Origin: an uncultured Opitutia bacterium
Lineage (GTDB): Bacteria; Verrucomicrobiota; Verrucomicrobiia; Opitutales; Opitutaceae
NCBI GenBank assembly: GCA_903900845.1
Contig: CAIUOU010000150.1
Span: forward strand, 1 to 47,123
Reading direction: 5' to 3'
Length of the DNA: 47,123 nucleotides
A program made the translations under genes and the position numbers. The stretch's first letter is position 1. Each line of letters begins with the position of its first letter. Shown piece after piece: positions 16,023 to 36,351 of the stretch. The notes beneath the pieces are model-generated. The model was not told where the DNA came from. It did not search any database and was given only the letters and a program-made list of their open reading frames with translations.

Positions 16023-16211
16023 CTACTGGGTAGTTTTTTAAACTATATCTGGTGTAGCCGCGGCTGATGCCTCGGACGCTTCGTTCAGGTTGTTCGTTCG
16101 CCTCTTTTTTCCGCTGCAGTCGCCCATGCCGCCCGAAAAATCTCCAAAAAAGTGGGTGGGCCACTGGAACTTTCCGGCGCCTGTGGTTTCTTAGTACATA
16201 CAGACTTTCTC

Positions 16212-16293
16212 CTCCGCTTAGCGGTGGAGAATTGGGGTAAGTAAGAAAGCAATGGGCGGACCGCTTAGGGGTAGGCGGTCCGCCCTCTTTTTT
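16212..16293 (+). ncRNA. Candidate small RNA or 3' element, copy A
   Basis: A small hairpin (about 16212-16229, CTCCGCTTAGCGGTGGAG) is followed after 24 nt by a perfect 11-bp stem with the loop TTAGGGGTAG and a U-tract. The same order, spacing and loop sequence occur at 28199-28275. On the plus strand the nearest gene ends at 16022, so this could be the tail of that transcript or an independent small RNA. No promoter was convincingly identified. Confidence 0.35.
16254..16293 (+). terminator. Strong rho-independent terminator
   Basis: GGGCGGACCGC (16254-16264) pairs perfectly with GCGGTCCGCCC (16275-16285), followed by TC and six T residues (16288-16293). The T-run fits plus-strand transcription. 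cysI converges from the other side and may also use the stem, although on the minus strand it is followed only by ATTGCTTTC. Confidence 0.85.
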
Positions 16294-24811: not shown

Positions 24812-26350
24812 ATGGAAACCCACCGTGGGGCGAAGGCCCCCCTCTCGCGGTTGAAAGTATCGGCCAAGGTTAAGACCTTCGTGCTAGACACGAATGTCCT
24901 CCTCCACGACCCGCAGTGCGTCTTCAAGTTTGAGGACAACAACCTGGCGATTCCCGTGGAAGTGCTCGAGGAGCTCGATGCCATCAAGGCCGAGCAGTCG
25001 ACCGAGCGGGGACGCAACGCCCGCCGCGTCCACCGCATCCTGCAGGAGTTGCTCCCCGACACCCGTTCGATGCACGAGGGCGTGGAGCTTGAGAACGGCG
25101 GCACGCTTTCGATCATCATCAACCCCTACCTCGCCGATCCCTCGGCCCGTTCCCCGGCACTCGACCGGCTGCGGGCGGTGCTGCCCGATCTTTCGAAGAA
25201 GGATAACCGCATCATCGCCGCCGCGCTGTTCGTGCAGGAGAGCTATCCGCCGCCGACGATCCTCGTGACGAAGGACGTGAACGTGCAGCTCAAGGCACGG
25301 GCGGTTGGCCTTGAGTCGGAGGATTACCTCAACGACAAGGTTCCGGCGGCCGACGATGAGTCGAGCTATCGCGAGATTCCGGTCACGATCTACGAGTTGC
25401 AGCGCTTCTGCTCGGAGGGAGCCTTCGAACTCGGGAAGGAGGCGGCGAAGGCCCTCTACCTAAATGAGTACGTCCTGCTGCGTTCCGACGAGGGCAAGAC
25501 AATGCCGGCGCGCTACAGCGGCGACGGCTCGGTGCGGCGCCTGCGGCTGCCGGATTTCGTGAAGGCGCCGGGCGGTATCCCGATCCGCGCGCGCAATCTG
25601 GAGCAGCAGTTCTTCATGGACGCTTTGCTCGATGACGGCATCGCGATCGTCACGTGCTTCGGGAAGGCCGGCACGGGCAAGACCCTGCTCTCGACCGCCT
25701 GCGCGCTGCACCAGACGCACGAAGACCAATCGCGCTACGACGGGGTTTCGATTTCCCGGCCGGTGATCGCGTTGGGCAAGGACATCGGATTCCTGCCTGG
25801 CTCACTCGAGGAGAAGATGAAGCCGTGGCTGCAACCCTACCACGACGCGCTGGAGGTACTGATCCCCTCCAAGCCCCCGAAGGACCCCCAGTTCGCCGCG
25901 AAGAAGGTAGCGAAGAAGAAGCACAAGAAGCACGATGCGCATTTCCTGTCGTCGATGGCCTCGCCCCAGCCCGCGCACGCCTCATCGTCGGGCGGCGGAA
26001 ACGGTCCGGTGGTCAAACCCTACGAGCGTCTGCTGCGCAGCGGTATGGTGGAGATCGAGGCGCTGGCCTTCATCCGGGGGCGTTCCATCGCGCGGCGGTT
26101 CTTTATCCTCGACGAGGCGCAACAGCTCACGCCGCACGAGGTGAAGACCGTTATCACGCGCATCAGCGAGGGTTCAAAGATCGTGCTGATCGGCGATCCC
26201 GCGCAGATCGACAACCCCTACGTCGACTCGCGCAGCAACGGTCTCGTCTATTGCCACAACCGCCTGAAGGGCCAGTCGATCGCGGCCCACGTGAAGCTCA
26301 CCAAGGGCGAACGCTCGCGTCTCGCCGAACTGGCCGCCGATCTCCTTTAG
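24812..26350 (+). CDS. PhoH-family ATPase with N-terminal PIN domain
   Basis: The ATG at 24812 gives 512 residues; an upstream GTG at 24737 would add 25 without domain content. The N-terminal PIN nuclease domain has VKTFVLDTNVLL (Asp26), VEVLEELDAIK and SKKDNRIIAAAL with TKDVN. The C-terminal PhoH ATPase has GKAGTGKT (284-291, Walker A), RFFILDEAQQLTPHE (Asp434, Walker B) and ITRISEGSKIVLIGDPAQID. Such PhoH2-type proteins are RNA helicase/RNases. A Lys/His-rich then Ser/Gly-rich insertion (about 354-400, KKVAKKKHKKHDAH) separates Walker A from Walker B, and could bind RNA. The gene is divergent from cysE. Confidence 0.93.
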   Translation: METHRGAKAPLSRLKVSAKVKTFVLDTNVLLHDPQCVFKFEDNNLAIPVEVLEELDAIKAEQSTERGRNARRVHRILQELLPDTRSMHEGVELENGGTLSIIINPYLADPSARSPALDRLRAVLPDLSKKDNRIIAAALFVQESYPPPTILVTKDVNVQLKARAVGLESEDYLNDKVPAADDESSYREIPVTIYELQRFCSEGAFELGKEAAKALYLNEYVLLRSDEGKTMPARYSGDGSVRRLRLPDFVKAPGGIPIRARNLEQQFFMDALLDDGIAIVTCFGKAGTGKTLLSTACALHQTHEDQSRYDGVSISRPVIALGKDIGFLPGSLEEKMKPWLQPYHDALEVLIPSKPPKDPQFAAKKVAKKKHKKHDAHFLSSMASPQPAHASSSGGGNGPVVKPYERLLRSGMVEIEALAFIRGRSIARRFFILDEAQQLTPHEVKTVITRISEGSKIVLIGDPAQIDNPYVDSRSNGLVYCHNRLKGQSIAAHVKLTKGERSRLAELAADLL

Positions 26351-26382: not shown

Positions 26383-26814
26383 CTACGGCATCGTTTTCAG
26401 CCCGGCTGCCTGGGCCAGGGACCGCTGGTTGGCATCGAAAGAGAGGAAGACCTTCGCGCTGAGATGAGAGGCGGCCGCCACGTGGAGGATATCGAAGGAG
26501 CGGTGGCCGGCGACCGCGGTGTGGGCGGCCGATAACCGCTTCGCCTCGTTCACGACCGAGGTCAGATTGGTCTGGTCCAGTAGCAGGCGGCCGCTCGCGA
26601 GGTCGGAGTCAAAGGCGGCCAGGATCTCCGCTCCGGCCGTCGCCTGGAGAACTTTTCGGAAAACGCCGAAGCTAACGGCATTTCGCAGCTCGTAATCGTT
26701 CAGTGGCGTGAGCGTCAGAGGGGCGGAAAGTTTCGTCACTAACGCCAGCGCGCGGTCGGTGTGCGCATCCCGCCCGTAGAGCGAGAATAGGAAGCTGGTG
26801 TCGCAACAGACCAC
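26383..26814 (-). CDS. PIN-domain toxin (VapC-like)
   Basis: The 143-residue protein begins MVCCDTSFLFSLYGRD with acidic Asp5. Further PIN features are PLNDYELRNAVSFGVFR (second acidic residue) and RSFDILHVAAASHLSAKVFLSFDANQ (third and fourth). PIN toxins cut RNA with Mg2+, often initiator tRNA or rRNA loops. It follows its antitoxin after 7 bp on the same strand and converges with phoH, 32 bp away. The length is typical. The RNA target is unknown. Confidence 0.88.
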   Translation of the reverse strand: MVCCDTSFLFSLYGRDAHTDRALALVTKLSAPLTLTPLNDYELRNAVSFGVFRKVLQATAGAEILAAFDSDLASGRLLLDQTNLTSVVNEAKRLSAAHTAVAGHRSFDILHVAAASHLSAKVFLSFDANQRSLAQAAGLKTMP

Positions 26815-26821
26815 GGGACTC

Positions 26822-27073
26822 TTAGCGACCGCCCTGGCTTTCGGCTAGCAGCGCCGCGGCGTCTGCGGCGTTCAAGCGCGGCAGGGCCGACTTGTTCATG
26901 CGTTGCGCTGCGCTCTGCCGCCAATCCACGCGGCCCGACTGCTTGGCGGGCTCGGGCACTAGCCGGGCGATCACCCGGCCTCGCCGGCTCACCGCCACCT
27001 CCTCGCCCGCCTCGATCCAGCCGAGCAGGCGCGTGTAGTGGTTGCGAAGGTCGCGAACAGTCGCGGTTTTCAT
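26822..27073 (-). CDS. Phd/YefM-type antitoxin
   Basis: The 83-residue protein MKTATVRDLRNHYTRLLGWIEAGEEVAVSRRGRVIARLVPEP matches the Phd/YefM DNA-binding fold. The C-terminal tail (about 45-83) is polar and Ala-rich, suitable for wrapping the toxin. It directly precedes the PIN toxin and probably represses its own promoter with it. A perfect palindrome ends 2 nt upstream of its start codon, strongly suggesting an operator. Phd-type antitoxins paired with PIN toxins are well known. Confidence 0.88.
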   Translation of the reverse strand: MKTATVRDLRNHYTRLLGWIEAGEEVAVSRRGRVIARLVPEPAKQSGRVDWRQSAAQRMNKSALPRLNAADAAALLAESQGGR

Positions 27074-27075
27074 TG

Positions 27076-27110
27076 TGCTACAAAAATGTAGCAGCGCGGG
27101 GACTTGTCAA
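27076..27110 (-). promoter_or_regulatory. Toxin-antitoxin promoter with operator palindrome
   Basis: TGCTACA-AAAA-TGTAGCA (27076-27093) is a perfect 7-bp inverted repeat just upstream of the antitoxin ATG at 27073. On the minus strand a consensus -35 TTGACA lies at 27110-27105. A -10 spaced 16-18 bp away would fall on the A/T core of the palindrome. Transcription would then begin within a few bases of the ATG, giving a leaderless or nearly leaderless mRNA. Confidence 0.65.
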
Positions 27111-27127
27111 TCGCCCCATCTGACCCC

Positions 27128-28072
27128 TCACCGGCTCGCCCCGGCGACTGCCGTCGGGACGGCGTAGAGCGAGGTGCGTGCCGTCATGAACAGCGTGCGG
27201 CCGTCGGGCCCGCCGAAGCAGAGGTTGGCCGCCGCCTCAGGGAGGATAATCCGGCCGATGCGTTTTCCGTCTGGTCCGAAAATCTGCACGCCGTCGCCGC
27301 TGCTCGTCCAAACCCGGCCGGCGGTGTCCACGCGGATGCCGTCGGGCGCACCTTTGTCCAGGGTGCAGAACACCGCGCCGCCGGAGACCGTGCCGTCGGC
27401 GGCGATCTCCAGCGCTCGGATATGGCGGGGTTTTCCGGAATCGGCGACGTAGAGCTTCCGCTCGTCGGGTGAGAAGGCCAGGCCGTTGGGCTGGTCAAAA
27501 TCGCGGGCGATCGCCGTGGTGCGGCCGGTGCGCGGATCGTGGCGGTAGACAAAGTTACCTGGCTGTTCCTTGCCCACCTTTTGTTTTGTGGCGGGATCGG
27601 TCTTCAGGCCGTACTCGGGATCGGTGAACCAGAGGGTACCGTCGGATTTCACGACGACGTCGTTCGGGGAGTTGAGCTTTCGGCCCTCGAAGGAGTCGAC
27701 GAGGGTCCGCAAAGTGCCGTCCTTTTCCAGACGCGCGACGCGGCGACCACTGTGCTCGCAGCTAAGAATTCGGCCCTCGAGGTCGATGGTGTTGCCGTTG
27801 GTGTTGCGGCTTGGCGCGCGGAAGGTCGCGACACCGCCCGATGAGCTCCATTTCCGGATCTCGTCGCGCGGGATGTCACTGAAAATGAGGTAGCCGCCCT
27901 CCTTGATCCAGGCGGGTCCCTCGGTGAAGCCGAAGCCGCCGGCGAGTTTAGTCACTCTGGCCTCCGCCGGGATACAGCGGGCGAATTCCGCCGGTTGGGT
28001 CGCCTCGAAGTCGGCCGCGCACCCGAGCGAAGAGAGGAACGTCACGATGATTATTTTGGCGGGGTTTTTCAT
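27128..28072 (-). CDS. SMP-30/gluconolactonase-like exported protein
   Basis: The 314-residue protein has a signal sequence MKNPAKIIIVTFLSSLGCAADF with a possible lipobox (SLGC, Cys18). It is followed by a six-bladed beta-propeller of the SMP-30/Gnl/LRE family. Family motifs are GFTEGPAWIKEGGYLIFSDIP (metal-binding Glu), RNTNGNTIDLEGRIL, LNSPNDVVVKSDGTLWFTDPEYGL and FDQPNGLAFSPDE. Members hydrolyse lactones such as gluconolactone with a divalent metal. The exported form suggests a role in extracellular sugar breakdown. It stands alone between the toxin-antitoxin pair and thrH, and the plus-strand element at 28199-28275 is upstream of it. Confidence 0.88.
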   Translation of the reverse strand: MKNPAKIIIVTFLSSLGCAADFEATQPAEFARCIPAEARVTKLAGGFGFTEGPAWIKEGGYLIFSDIPRDEIRKWSSSGGVATFRAPSRNTNGNTIDLEGRILSCEHSGRRVARLEKDGTLRTLVDSFEGRKLNSPNDVVVKSDGTLWFTDPEYGLKTDPATKQKVGKEQPGNFVYRHDPRTGRTTAIARDFDQPNGLAFSPDERKLYVADSGKPRHIRALEIAADGTVSGGAVFCTLDKGAPDGIRVDTAGRVWTSSGDGVQIFGPDGKRIGRIILPEAAANLCFGGPDGRTLFMTARTSLYAVPTAVAGASR

Positions 28073-28198
28073 GGGTAAAGGTATGCAAAAAACTGGTGGA
28101 TAGGTATTTAAGAATACATTAAGCTTTCGTTCCGACGGCGCCCCGCGGTTTTTTTCGAAAAACTTCGCGGCTTTTGAACGTTCGAGGACCGGGGGCGT

Positions 28199-28275
28199 CT
28201 ACCTCTTGGTAGTTCAATGGTTTGCTTGGTGTTAGGTGCGAGGGCCGCCTAGGGGTAGGCGGCCCTCACTCTTTT
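28199..28275 (+). ncRNA. Candidate small RNA, copy B
   Basis: A short hairpin CTACC-TCTT-GGTAG (28199-28212) is followed after 27 nt by a perfect 10-bp stem with the loop TAGGGGTA and a U-tract. The architecture matches 16212-16293. No plus-strand gene precedes it for well over 1 kb; both neighbours are on the minus strand. A terminator in this orientation therefore implies an unannotated plus-strand transcript from within 28073-28240. A T-rich quasi-palindrome (28143-28170) lies just upstream. Length and start are unknown. Confidence 0.4.
28240..28275 (+). terminator. Terminator-like hairpin with conserved loop
   Basis: GAGGGCCGCC (28240-28249) pairs perfectly with GGCGGCCCTC (28258-28267), followed by ACTC and TTTT. 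The loop TAGGGGTA is the same as in the hairpin at 16254-16285. The minus strand lacks a T-run here, so it fits poorly as the terminator of thrH. Confidence 0.7.
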
Positions 28276-28310
28276 CCGGTATCGGAACCCGGCAGCGACC
28301 GCTCCGGATC

Positions 28311-28913
28311 TTACAAGCAGCCGGTGATGCGCTGCAGCAACTCGTCGTAACGCTCGAGGGCGGGGAACCGCGGGAACTCACGCACGACGTTCTCCGGCGC
28401 GTGGAACAGGAATCCGTGGTCGGCCTGACCAAGCATCGTGGTGTCGTTGTAGGAGTCTCCGGCCGCGATCACGCGGTAGTTCAGGGCCTGCAGCGCTTCG
28501 ACCGCGCGCCGCTTCTGATCAGGCAGTCGCAGGCGGTAGCCCGCGATCCGGTCGTTCTCCACCACTAACCGATGGCAAAGCAGGGTGGGCCAACCCATGC
28601 GGCGCATGAGCGGCTGCGCGAACTGCTCGAAGGTGTCGGAGAGAATGATCACCTGCGTGCGACGGCGCAGCTCCGCGAGAAAGTCGAGCGCGCCGGGCAA
28701 CGGCTCCAAGCCGCCGATCACTTCCTGGATCCGCGAGAGCGTCACCCCGTGCCGGTCCATGATGCCGATGCGGTAATTCATCAGCTTGTCGTAGTCCGGT
28801 TCCTCGCGGGTGGTGCGCCGCAGCTCCGGGATGCCGGTGCGCTCGGCGACGGCGATCCAGATCTCGGGCGTGAGGACGCCCTCCATGTCGAGGGTGACGA
28901 TGCTTTGCTTCAC
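28311..28913 (-). CDS. thrH: Phosphoserine phosphatase / homoserine phosphotransferase
   Basis: The GTG at 28913 gives 200 residues (MKQSIVTLDMEGVLTPEIW), close to the usual 205; longer upstream frames run into the neighbouring gene. ThrH is an HAD enzyme that removes phosphate from phosphoserine and can transfer it to homoserine. The nucleophile Asp9 is in LDMEGV, VIILSDTFEQFA supplies motif II, and VIAAGDSYNDTTML supplies motif IV. It begins 16 bp after the DJ-1-type gene, which follows glnS, so the three are likely one transcript. A link to serine supply for CysE is possible but only by proximity. Confidence 0.92.
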   Translation of the reverse strand: MKQSIVTLDMEGVLTPEIWIAVAERTGIPELRRTTREEPDYDKLMNYRIGIMDRHGVTLSRIQEVIGGLEPLPGALDFLAELRRRTQVIILSDTFEQFAQPLMRRMGWPTLLCHRLVVENDRIAGYRLRLPDQKRRAVEALQALNYRVIAAGDSYNDTTMLGQADHGFLFHAPENVVREFPRFPALERYDELLQRITGCL

Positions 28914-28929
28914 AGGATTTTCCGTAGAG

Positions 28930-29649
28930 TCACTCCAGCCACGGCTCCTCGGGCTTCGGCGTCGCCTTTGGTCCGGCATCGAGTTCCGCGGCGGCGCGTT
29001 TGCTCGCGTCCAGCCGGCGCTCCATGAAGGAGGCCATGCGTTCACGCGACTCGGTTACGACCTCTGCGGGGGCATGATGCGGCGTGCCGCTCCAAAAGGG
29101 AGGGCTGGGCTCGTACTCCAGCGCGAGCTGGATCGTCTGCGCGGTTCGTTCGTCGACGGTCTGCGCCACCACCTGGAGCGCGAAATCCAGCCCGGCCGTC
29201 ACACCCGCGCCCGTGATGCGATTGCGGTCCACGACGACGCGCGAGTCCTGCGGTTCCGCACCGAACAGGCTGAGTTGGTCGCGCGACGCCCAATGGCAGG
29301 TTGCCTGGTAACCCTTGAGCAGGCCGGCCGCTCCGAGCAGCAGCGAACCGGTGCAAACCGACGTGATCCACTTCGCCTTGGCCGCTTGGTCGCGCAGAAA
29401 ACCCAGCACCTCGAAATCATCCATCAGGTCGACCTGGCCCGGACCACCCGGGACGCACAGGACGTCGAGCGGCGGGCAATCCGTGAATGTCATCGTCGGT
29501 TGCAGCCGCAGCCCGCGGTCGCTGTCGACCGGATCGAGGAACTTCCAAATGAGGTGAACCTTCGCTCCCGGGATGCGCGCGAACACCTCGAACGGCGCCG
29601 TGAGGTCGAGCTGGGTGACCTTGGGATAGAGCAGCAGTCCGATTTCCAT
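28930..29649 (-). CDS. DJ-1/PfpI family protein (isonitrile hydratase-like)
   Basis: The 239-residue protein MEIGLLLYPKVTQLDLTAPFEVFAR has the class I glutamine amidotransferase-like fold. The nucleophile elbow is SVCTGSLLLGAAGLL with Cys99, followed by ATCHWASRDQL. This arrangement is typical of the isonitrile hydratase (InhA)/DJ-1 subgroup, whose members hydrate isonitriles or act as glyoxalases and chaperones. The C-terminal 40 residues form a charged helix and a Pro-rich tail. It lies 20 bp after glnS and 16 bp before thrH. The substrate is not determinable. Confidence 0.85.
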   Translation of the reverse strand: MEIGLLLYPKVTQLDLTAPFEVFARIPGAKVHLIWKFLDPVDSDRGLRLQPTMTFTDCPPLDVLCVPGGPGQVDLMDDFEVLGFLRDQAAKAKWITSVCTGSLLLGAAGLLKGYQATCHWASRDQLSLFGAEPQDSRVVVDRNRITGAGVTAGLDFALQVVAQTVDERTAQTIQLALEYEPSPPFWSGTPHHAPAEVVTESRERMASFMERRLDASKRAAAELDAGPKATPKPEEPWLE

Positions 29650-36287: not shown

Positions 36288-36324
36288 GGAAAACAACGCG
36301 CCGGCGGCTGGCAACCGCCGGCGC
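36288..36324 (-). terminator. Terminator-like hairpin splitting the sulfatase array
   Basis: GCGCCGGCGG (36298-36307) pairs perfectly with CCGCCGGCGC (36315-36324) around a 7-nt loop. On the minus strand it is followed by GTTGTTTTCC. It lies 27 bp after the sulfatase 4 stop and before the sulfatase 3 start. Confidence 0.7.
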
Positions 36325-36351
36325 GGGCTGCGCGAGGGCGCGGACGGAATT

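Follow-up and report, generated by a model that had tools for sequence, protein, structure and literature searches.

The window analysed here, the whole stretch of 47,123 nucleotides, is one contig (G000:C150) of a 4.4-Mb draft genome. Between an SMP-30/gluconolactonase-like gene (27128-28072) and thrH (stop codon at 28311-28313), both encoded by the minus strand, lies a hairpin of 12 perfect pairs (GAGGGCCGCCTA, a GGGG loop, then TAGGCGGCCCTC), approximately 43 nt past the thrH stop. On the plus strand the stem is followed by a T-run sequence (ACTCTTTT / ACTCTTTTCC), while the minus strand beyond the stem reads GCACCTAACACC and has no T-run. The nearest plus-strand gene found upstream, a PhoH-like one, ends at 26350, 1.9 kb away. 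These data confirm what the initial annotation had noticed at this place, namely a hairpin with its T-run on the plus strand, both flanking genes on the minus strand and no preceding plus-strand gene for over 1 kb.

The number of terminators returned by a generic scan of 27000-29500 is not above chance (2, against a mean of 2.0 and a standard deviation of 1.4 in shuffles), but a perfect 12-pair stem is unusual: the window has one, its longest, and 20 windows shuffled by dinucleotides gave two between them. Besides this stem the window has a single perfect hairpin of at least 10 pairs, at 36297-36325, with 11 pairs and a CTGGCAA loop and no adjacent T-run. Both strands around the stem fold better than shuffled sequences (z = -3.15 for 28073-28285 of the plus strand and -4.29 for 28073-28310 of the minus strand), so the folding energy does not decide the strand of the RNA; it is the T-run, the promoter-like pair described below and the comparison between genomes that assign it to the plus strand.

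Among the neighbouring genes, the region 26383-27073 of the minus strand holds a PIN-domain gene beside a Phd/YefM-like gene (24.9 bits, where Pfam requires 29.8), an arrangement of the toxin-antitoxin type. Plasmid records gave 421 matches, of which the 20 listed overlap the SMP-30 or DJ-1 genes and not the RNA.

Anatomy and conservation of the predicted RNA

Table 1. Elements of the predicted small RNA gene in the window.
Feature	Positions	Strand	Basis
-35-like element TTGAAC of a putative ECF-type promoter	28174..28179	+	pair in all 157 distinct copies
-10-like element CGTCT	28196..28200	+	same pair comparison as the -35-like element
Predicted small RNA, about 68 nt	28208..28275	+	R1 model match, promoter, T-run
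Near-invariant G/U-rich core GGTTTGCTTGGTGTTAGGT, 19 nt	28219..28237	+	alignments A1 and A2
Terminator stem-loop, 12 pairs, GGGG loop	28240..28267	+	sequence, shuffles, covariation
Intrinsic-terminator T-tract (TTTT), separated from the stem by four bases	28272..28275	+	sequence

The start of the predicted RNA follows from the promoter position and is uncertain by some 4 nt, and its end follows from the T-run. An unannotated plus-strand small RNA had been proposed for 28073-28240; the RNA gene itself, ending at the hairpin and independent of thrH, is upheld by our analysis, whereas that extent has to be revised, since the promoter-like pair at 28174-28200 moves the predicted start downstream and the hairpin would belong to the transcript. 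Judging by the sequence, positions 28073-28207 are probably promoter and spacer, outside the RNA.

The covariance model R1 matches the window at 28207-28274 with an E value of 5.6e-19, though the window's copy is one of the 25 used to build the model. The predicted 68-nt RNA folds with z = -2.8, and its core is unpaired in the centroid fold and partly paired in the minimum-energy fold. The core is invariant across the 66 rows of A2, and of the 25 rows of A1 only L019, which has a C, and L021, which lacks the last T, deviate from it; this invariance is somewhat overstated, as the copies were gathered partly by the core, and core variants exist among loci outside both alignments. The T-runs differ in length among the copies aligned in A1. 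The window's copy represents a short form, and the commoner long form carries an extra 5' hairpin. The GGGG loop of the terminator is found in 24 of 25 short-form copies versus none of 132 others, a restriction which common descent may explain in part.

In A1 five of 15 predicted pairs are changed on both sides, all of them within the terminator stem. Among 66 long forms, hand-picked from 95, changes on both sides are seen at all 14 pairs tested, five predicted pairs within the invariant core having been omitted as never varying. Paired cells make up 91.9% in this alignment versus 79.2% after shuffling, and the covariation score is 0.617 versus 0.359 in shuffles, none of 500 being as high, and at most 0.257 in slid versions; all five measures exceed all 500 shuffles and the slid versions, with a bias in favour of the structure, which was derived from the same alignment as was tested. 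In both alignments the structure is retained through compensating changes, and the comparison of sequences indicates that the anatomy of an RNA gene is kept by selection here.

Genomic context and distribution

In a BLASTN search of 28073-28290 against 57 relatives, matches with E < 1e-10 were obtained in 14 other genomes, all of the same genus, and they extend from approximately 28195 to the T-run or cover most of that span. The neighbourhoods of 137 distinct loci were mapped by a simple home-made gene caller, with one representative per cluster named by profile search. Within 600 nt, 59 of these loci have a lysine 2,3-aminomutase-like gene and 25 a SIMPL gene; TonB-receptor genes fall into two clusters, one found near 23 loci and the other near 11. 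SMP-30 stands beside nine loci, in six of which the opposite neighbour is PurL-like, and thrH is adjacent in two only, the window and its nearest relative. This distribution bears on a rival explanation of the hairpin, which would be a mere terminator of thrH, possibly a bidirectional one, with no RNA gene at all. Its location shortly after the thrH stop codon, with a minus-strand gene on either side, and the minus strand that folds at least equally well would agree with such a role, but the strand of thrH has no T-run, a conserved promoter-like pair and core adjoin the hairpin, and most of the SMP-30-flanked loci have a PurL-like gene as their other neighbour. In relatives the element stands next to other genes and hence is not a terminator of thrH; we reject this explanation as extremely improbable. 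On the evidence of the promoter-like pair, the conserved body, the covarying terminator, and the occurrence in many genomes with differing neighbours, an autonomous plus-strand small RNA gene with an intrinsic terminator is a well supported prediction.

Within the family, R1 finds matches in 205 of 252 genomes and 41 of 49 genera at an E value of 0.01, a count which includes 25 genomes whose best E is above 1e-6; with a best E of at most 1e-6, as counted from the match table, there remain 180 genomes and 32 genera. Among the weak matches examined, the one in G210 is apparently an ordinary gene terminator and the one in G154 a true copy. In the complete genome G029 the copy lies at G029:C1:2408044-2408111. 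Many genomes of the family have two or more matches, some of them in tandem, approximately 160-250 bp apart. Tandem RNA genes at L077, L078, L080, L086, L095 and L097 lie ~160-205 bp apart, and in several tandem pairs the -35 variant differs between the two copies (TTGAGCA versus TTGAACG), which may hint at two related activators. In named genome contigs a 20-nt core was present in at least 119 stretches, 118 of which are labelled Verrucomicrobia, Opitutae, Opitutaceae or by genera that we take to be members, and one 'bacterium'; the names of the family and the order used here were deduced from these labels.

Across the order, R1 matches 81 of 372 genomes at E 1e-3, including 23 outside the family, all weak. 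Of the 18 useful loci retrieved, 13 are from outside the family; 12 of these look like ordinary gene terminators, and the thirteenth, L254, is truly related, though diverged, and shares the promoter. In its family, f11, 20 of 43 genomes contain the pattern TTTGAACG-N15-CGTCTAT, with 34 matches altogether (none in the reversed control), often in pairs; inspected by eye, each of the 31 distinct matches listed leads into a body rich in G and T and then a GC hairpin. Class-wide, the strict promoter yields 11 matches in 9 of 384 genomes (2 in the control), of which four correspond to f11 pairs already known and five (L348-L352) lie ahead of a G/T-rich RNA; L346, which alone falls outside the order, is apparently inside a protein gene, and L347 is ambiguous. 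A composite pattern of promoter plus GTTTGTNGTT, which misses the short form of the window, occurs in 73 of 372 genomes and 29 of 100 genera of the order (control 0), namely in families f1, f4, f8, f11, f16, f18 and f21, and has no match in the large, well-sampled families f2, f19 and f20. Other families have a different core (AGTTTGTTGTTTG, CTAGTTTGTAGTTTG). According to these sequence patterns, diverged relatives with the same promoter, a G/U-rich body and a terminator are present elsewhere in the order, outside the family.

The promoter-like pair and the sigma question

All of the first 25 copies aligned have TTGARC and CGTCT, with a gap between GARC and CGTC of 16 nt in 24 and 17 nt in one. 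When the comparison was extended to 157 distinct copies, a TTGARC/CGTCT-like pair above the score threshold was found upstream of every one, one case being doubtful, versus 104 of 785 shuffled upstream regions; the spacer is 16 nt in 146 copies, 17 in 10 and 18 in one. An exact TTGARC is present in 114 copies and an exact CGTCT in 129; TTCAACG, TTGAATG and CATCT are the chief variants. The distance from the pair to the core varies from 21 to 61 nt (89 in the doubtful case, L151), so that the promoter is regarded as a separate unit. Promoter-like signals of its own are thus kept with the RNA, as a matter of sequence presence and not of activity.

The strict form, TTGARCG-N15-CGTCT, occurs once in the window's genome, at this RNA (2 in the reversed control). 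In 17 genomes of the genus it has 45 matches, 20 at RNA genes and 25 elsewhere, and the latter number stays below the 35 obtained with the reversed pattern as control, giving no sign of a protein regulon for the strict promoter in these genomes. The pattern suggests that the strict promoter is devoted to these RNAs; protein genes may have looser versions of it. As candidate sigma factors, 17 Sigma70_r4_2 matches were collected from the window's genome, some of them LuxR-type regulators by eye, and the motif in the upstream regions of the candidate genes scores no better than background: the best score is 9, reached or exceeded by 62 of 300 random window stretches, in a test that covered 16 of the 17 loci and in which some frames are probably not the sigma gene.

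Promoters of ECF sigma factors typically combine GAAC with a CGTC-like -10 box some 16 nt apart. The boxes found here resemble this pattern, and CGTCT is unlike TATAAT, both of which argue against a promoter of non-ECF type, where another activator or class of sigma factor would read TTGARC and CGTCT. Such a promoter would agree with the resemblance of TTGARC to the sigma-70 -35 box as well, with the sigma candidates of the own genome, none of which has the motif above background, and with the strict motif exceeding control solely through RNA genes in the searches made; we consider it unlikely, though deserving attention. It might be suggested, quite tentatively, that Opitutales reserve a single sigma-type promoter almost exclusively for a set of sibling small RNAs. 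These would form an arm of a stress response made up of RNA alone, which would work without Hfq and would have been retained in several families of the order as the RNA bodies diverged.

Proposed function and relation to known RNAs

Known RNA families were rejected for this locus, since there was no Rfam match at or above gathering: in Rfam 15 the best score for 27950-28420 is 17.8 bits versus a gathering threshold of 94, and on the loci of eleven relatives three matches pass, two tRNA and one TPP, none of this kind. The accessible part of the open-access literature on small RNAs of Opitutaceae, Opitutus terrae and Verrucomicrobia gave no report of this RNA. We therefore regard it as a new RNA family of a known kind, small regulatory RNA. 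Catalogues contain few regulatory RNAs from these lineages: a review (PMC9029176) gives 8 small RNA families for the Planctomycetes-Verrucomicrobia-Chlamydiae group as a whole.

The presence of relatives in several families of one order makes a regulator probable. We propose, with a probability of roughly 0.55, that it is a base-pairing regulatory RNA with an ECF-sigma-type promoter, acting in the manner of FoxI/FoxJ or MicA/RybB, and doing so without Hfq. An alternative ECF-type sigma factor would start transcription at about 28208 upon a stress or envelope signal, and the RNA would terminate at about 28275. Its exposed G/U-rich core would pair by short complementarity with C/A-rich stretches near the starts of several mRNAs and alter their translation or decay. 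Hfq (PF17209) was found in none of the 57 relatives, own genome included (the controls gave a match in 5 of 14), so the pairing would proceed without Hfq or with another chaperone.

The searches for targets found none. A 13-nt complement of the core has 48 matches in the 57 genomes and 4 in the reversed control; of the 30 retrieved, 24 are RNA genes (L277, missed by the scripted promoter test, was scored as RNA by its sequence) and six are not (L268, L269, L272, L278, L292, L297), and at least 14 of the other 18 lie at RNA-gene matches. No long complementary target site for the core exceeds control level in the 57 genomes. The start regions of 546 nearby genes show no preference for the core, with a mean duplex energy of -18.3 for it and from -18.1 to -20.4 for shuffled cores; these tests have little power for short seeds.

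The constancy of the core is stricter than is usual for base-pairing seeds and could point to a protein ligand. An RNA which holds a protein (an RNA-binding regulator, RNA polymerase or a chaperone) by the core or the GGGG loop, as CsrB or 6S do, instead of pairing with mRNA, would account for the near-invariant core, for the lack of long complementary sites above control, for the tandem copies and for the GGGG loop that persists in short forms despite differing stems. Repeated GGA motifs of the CsrB type are, by eye, absent, the fold has no long rod like that of 6S, and no Rfam family was matched; moreover, a core that changes from one family to another fits a shifting seed better than a fixed binding site, and we find this function rather improbable. 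Far less credible is a small peptide encoded by the transcript, here ATGGTTTGCTTGGTGTTAGGTGCGAGGGCCGCCTAG of 11 residues: an ATG-to-TAG frame does exist in this copy and several short forms, but in many copies the ATG is replaced (by ACG, AAA and others) and the frame is lost, and third codon positions vary as little as the first two, so that the peptide was rejected.

The base-pairing reading has its closest parallels in several known systems. MicA, RybB and MicL of enteric bacteria share with this RNA an intrinsic terminator and a close upstream promoter of ECF type, putative in the present case; MicA and RybB are about 70-80 nt long, near the ~68 nt predicted here. All three work with Hfq, which was not found in the relatives searched here, and no Rfam match links them to this RNA. 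In GcvB, too, the likely seed is an unpaired stretch rich in G and U that would pair with C/A-rich leaders of mRNAs, but GcvB is longer, Hfq-bound and controlled by GcvA, and no Rfam match links it to our RNA. Helicobacter pylori, the host of RepG, is not known to have Hfq. RepG targets a low-complexity stretch of an mRNA leader (PMC8295292), and differs from our RNA in pairing sequence, promoter and phylum. FoxI and FoxJ are sigma-E-dependent small RNAs of Fusobacterium nucleatum and, according to PMC11005410, their genes are likewise short and read from a promoter of an ECF sigma factor, which is proven for them and proposed here, with sibling RNAs under one promoter type and a conserved seed-like stretch. 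Their seed is a C-stretch, in contrast to the G/U-rich core, and the sigma factor and targets (fomA) are proven there and only proposed here (PMC11005410); no sequence relation between them and this RNA is claimed.

The RNA, strongly matched in most genomes of the family and placed under a promoter whose listed matches in a second family, f11, all lead to RNA genes, would give direct access to a likely stress response of little-studied bacteria, and also to the action of small RNAs where Hfq is missing.

A second, unrelated conserved small RNA gene is predicted in the window at 16166-16291 of the plus strand, with a promoter-like GGAAC-N15-GTTTC (16166-16190), a 5' hairpin, TTGGGGTAAGTAAGAAAGCAATGGGCGG and a terminator with the same loop, AGGGGTA; the 22 distinct copies aligned, including the window's, were chosen partly by this loop. 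Its best Rfam score is 26.5 bits, with gathering at 90. At L309 (G028:C4) this second RNA apparently stands under the promoter type of the first, TTGAAAC...GCGTCTTAC, as if promoters had been swapped between the two RNA families.
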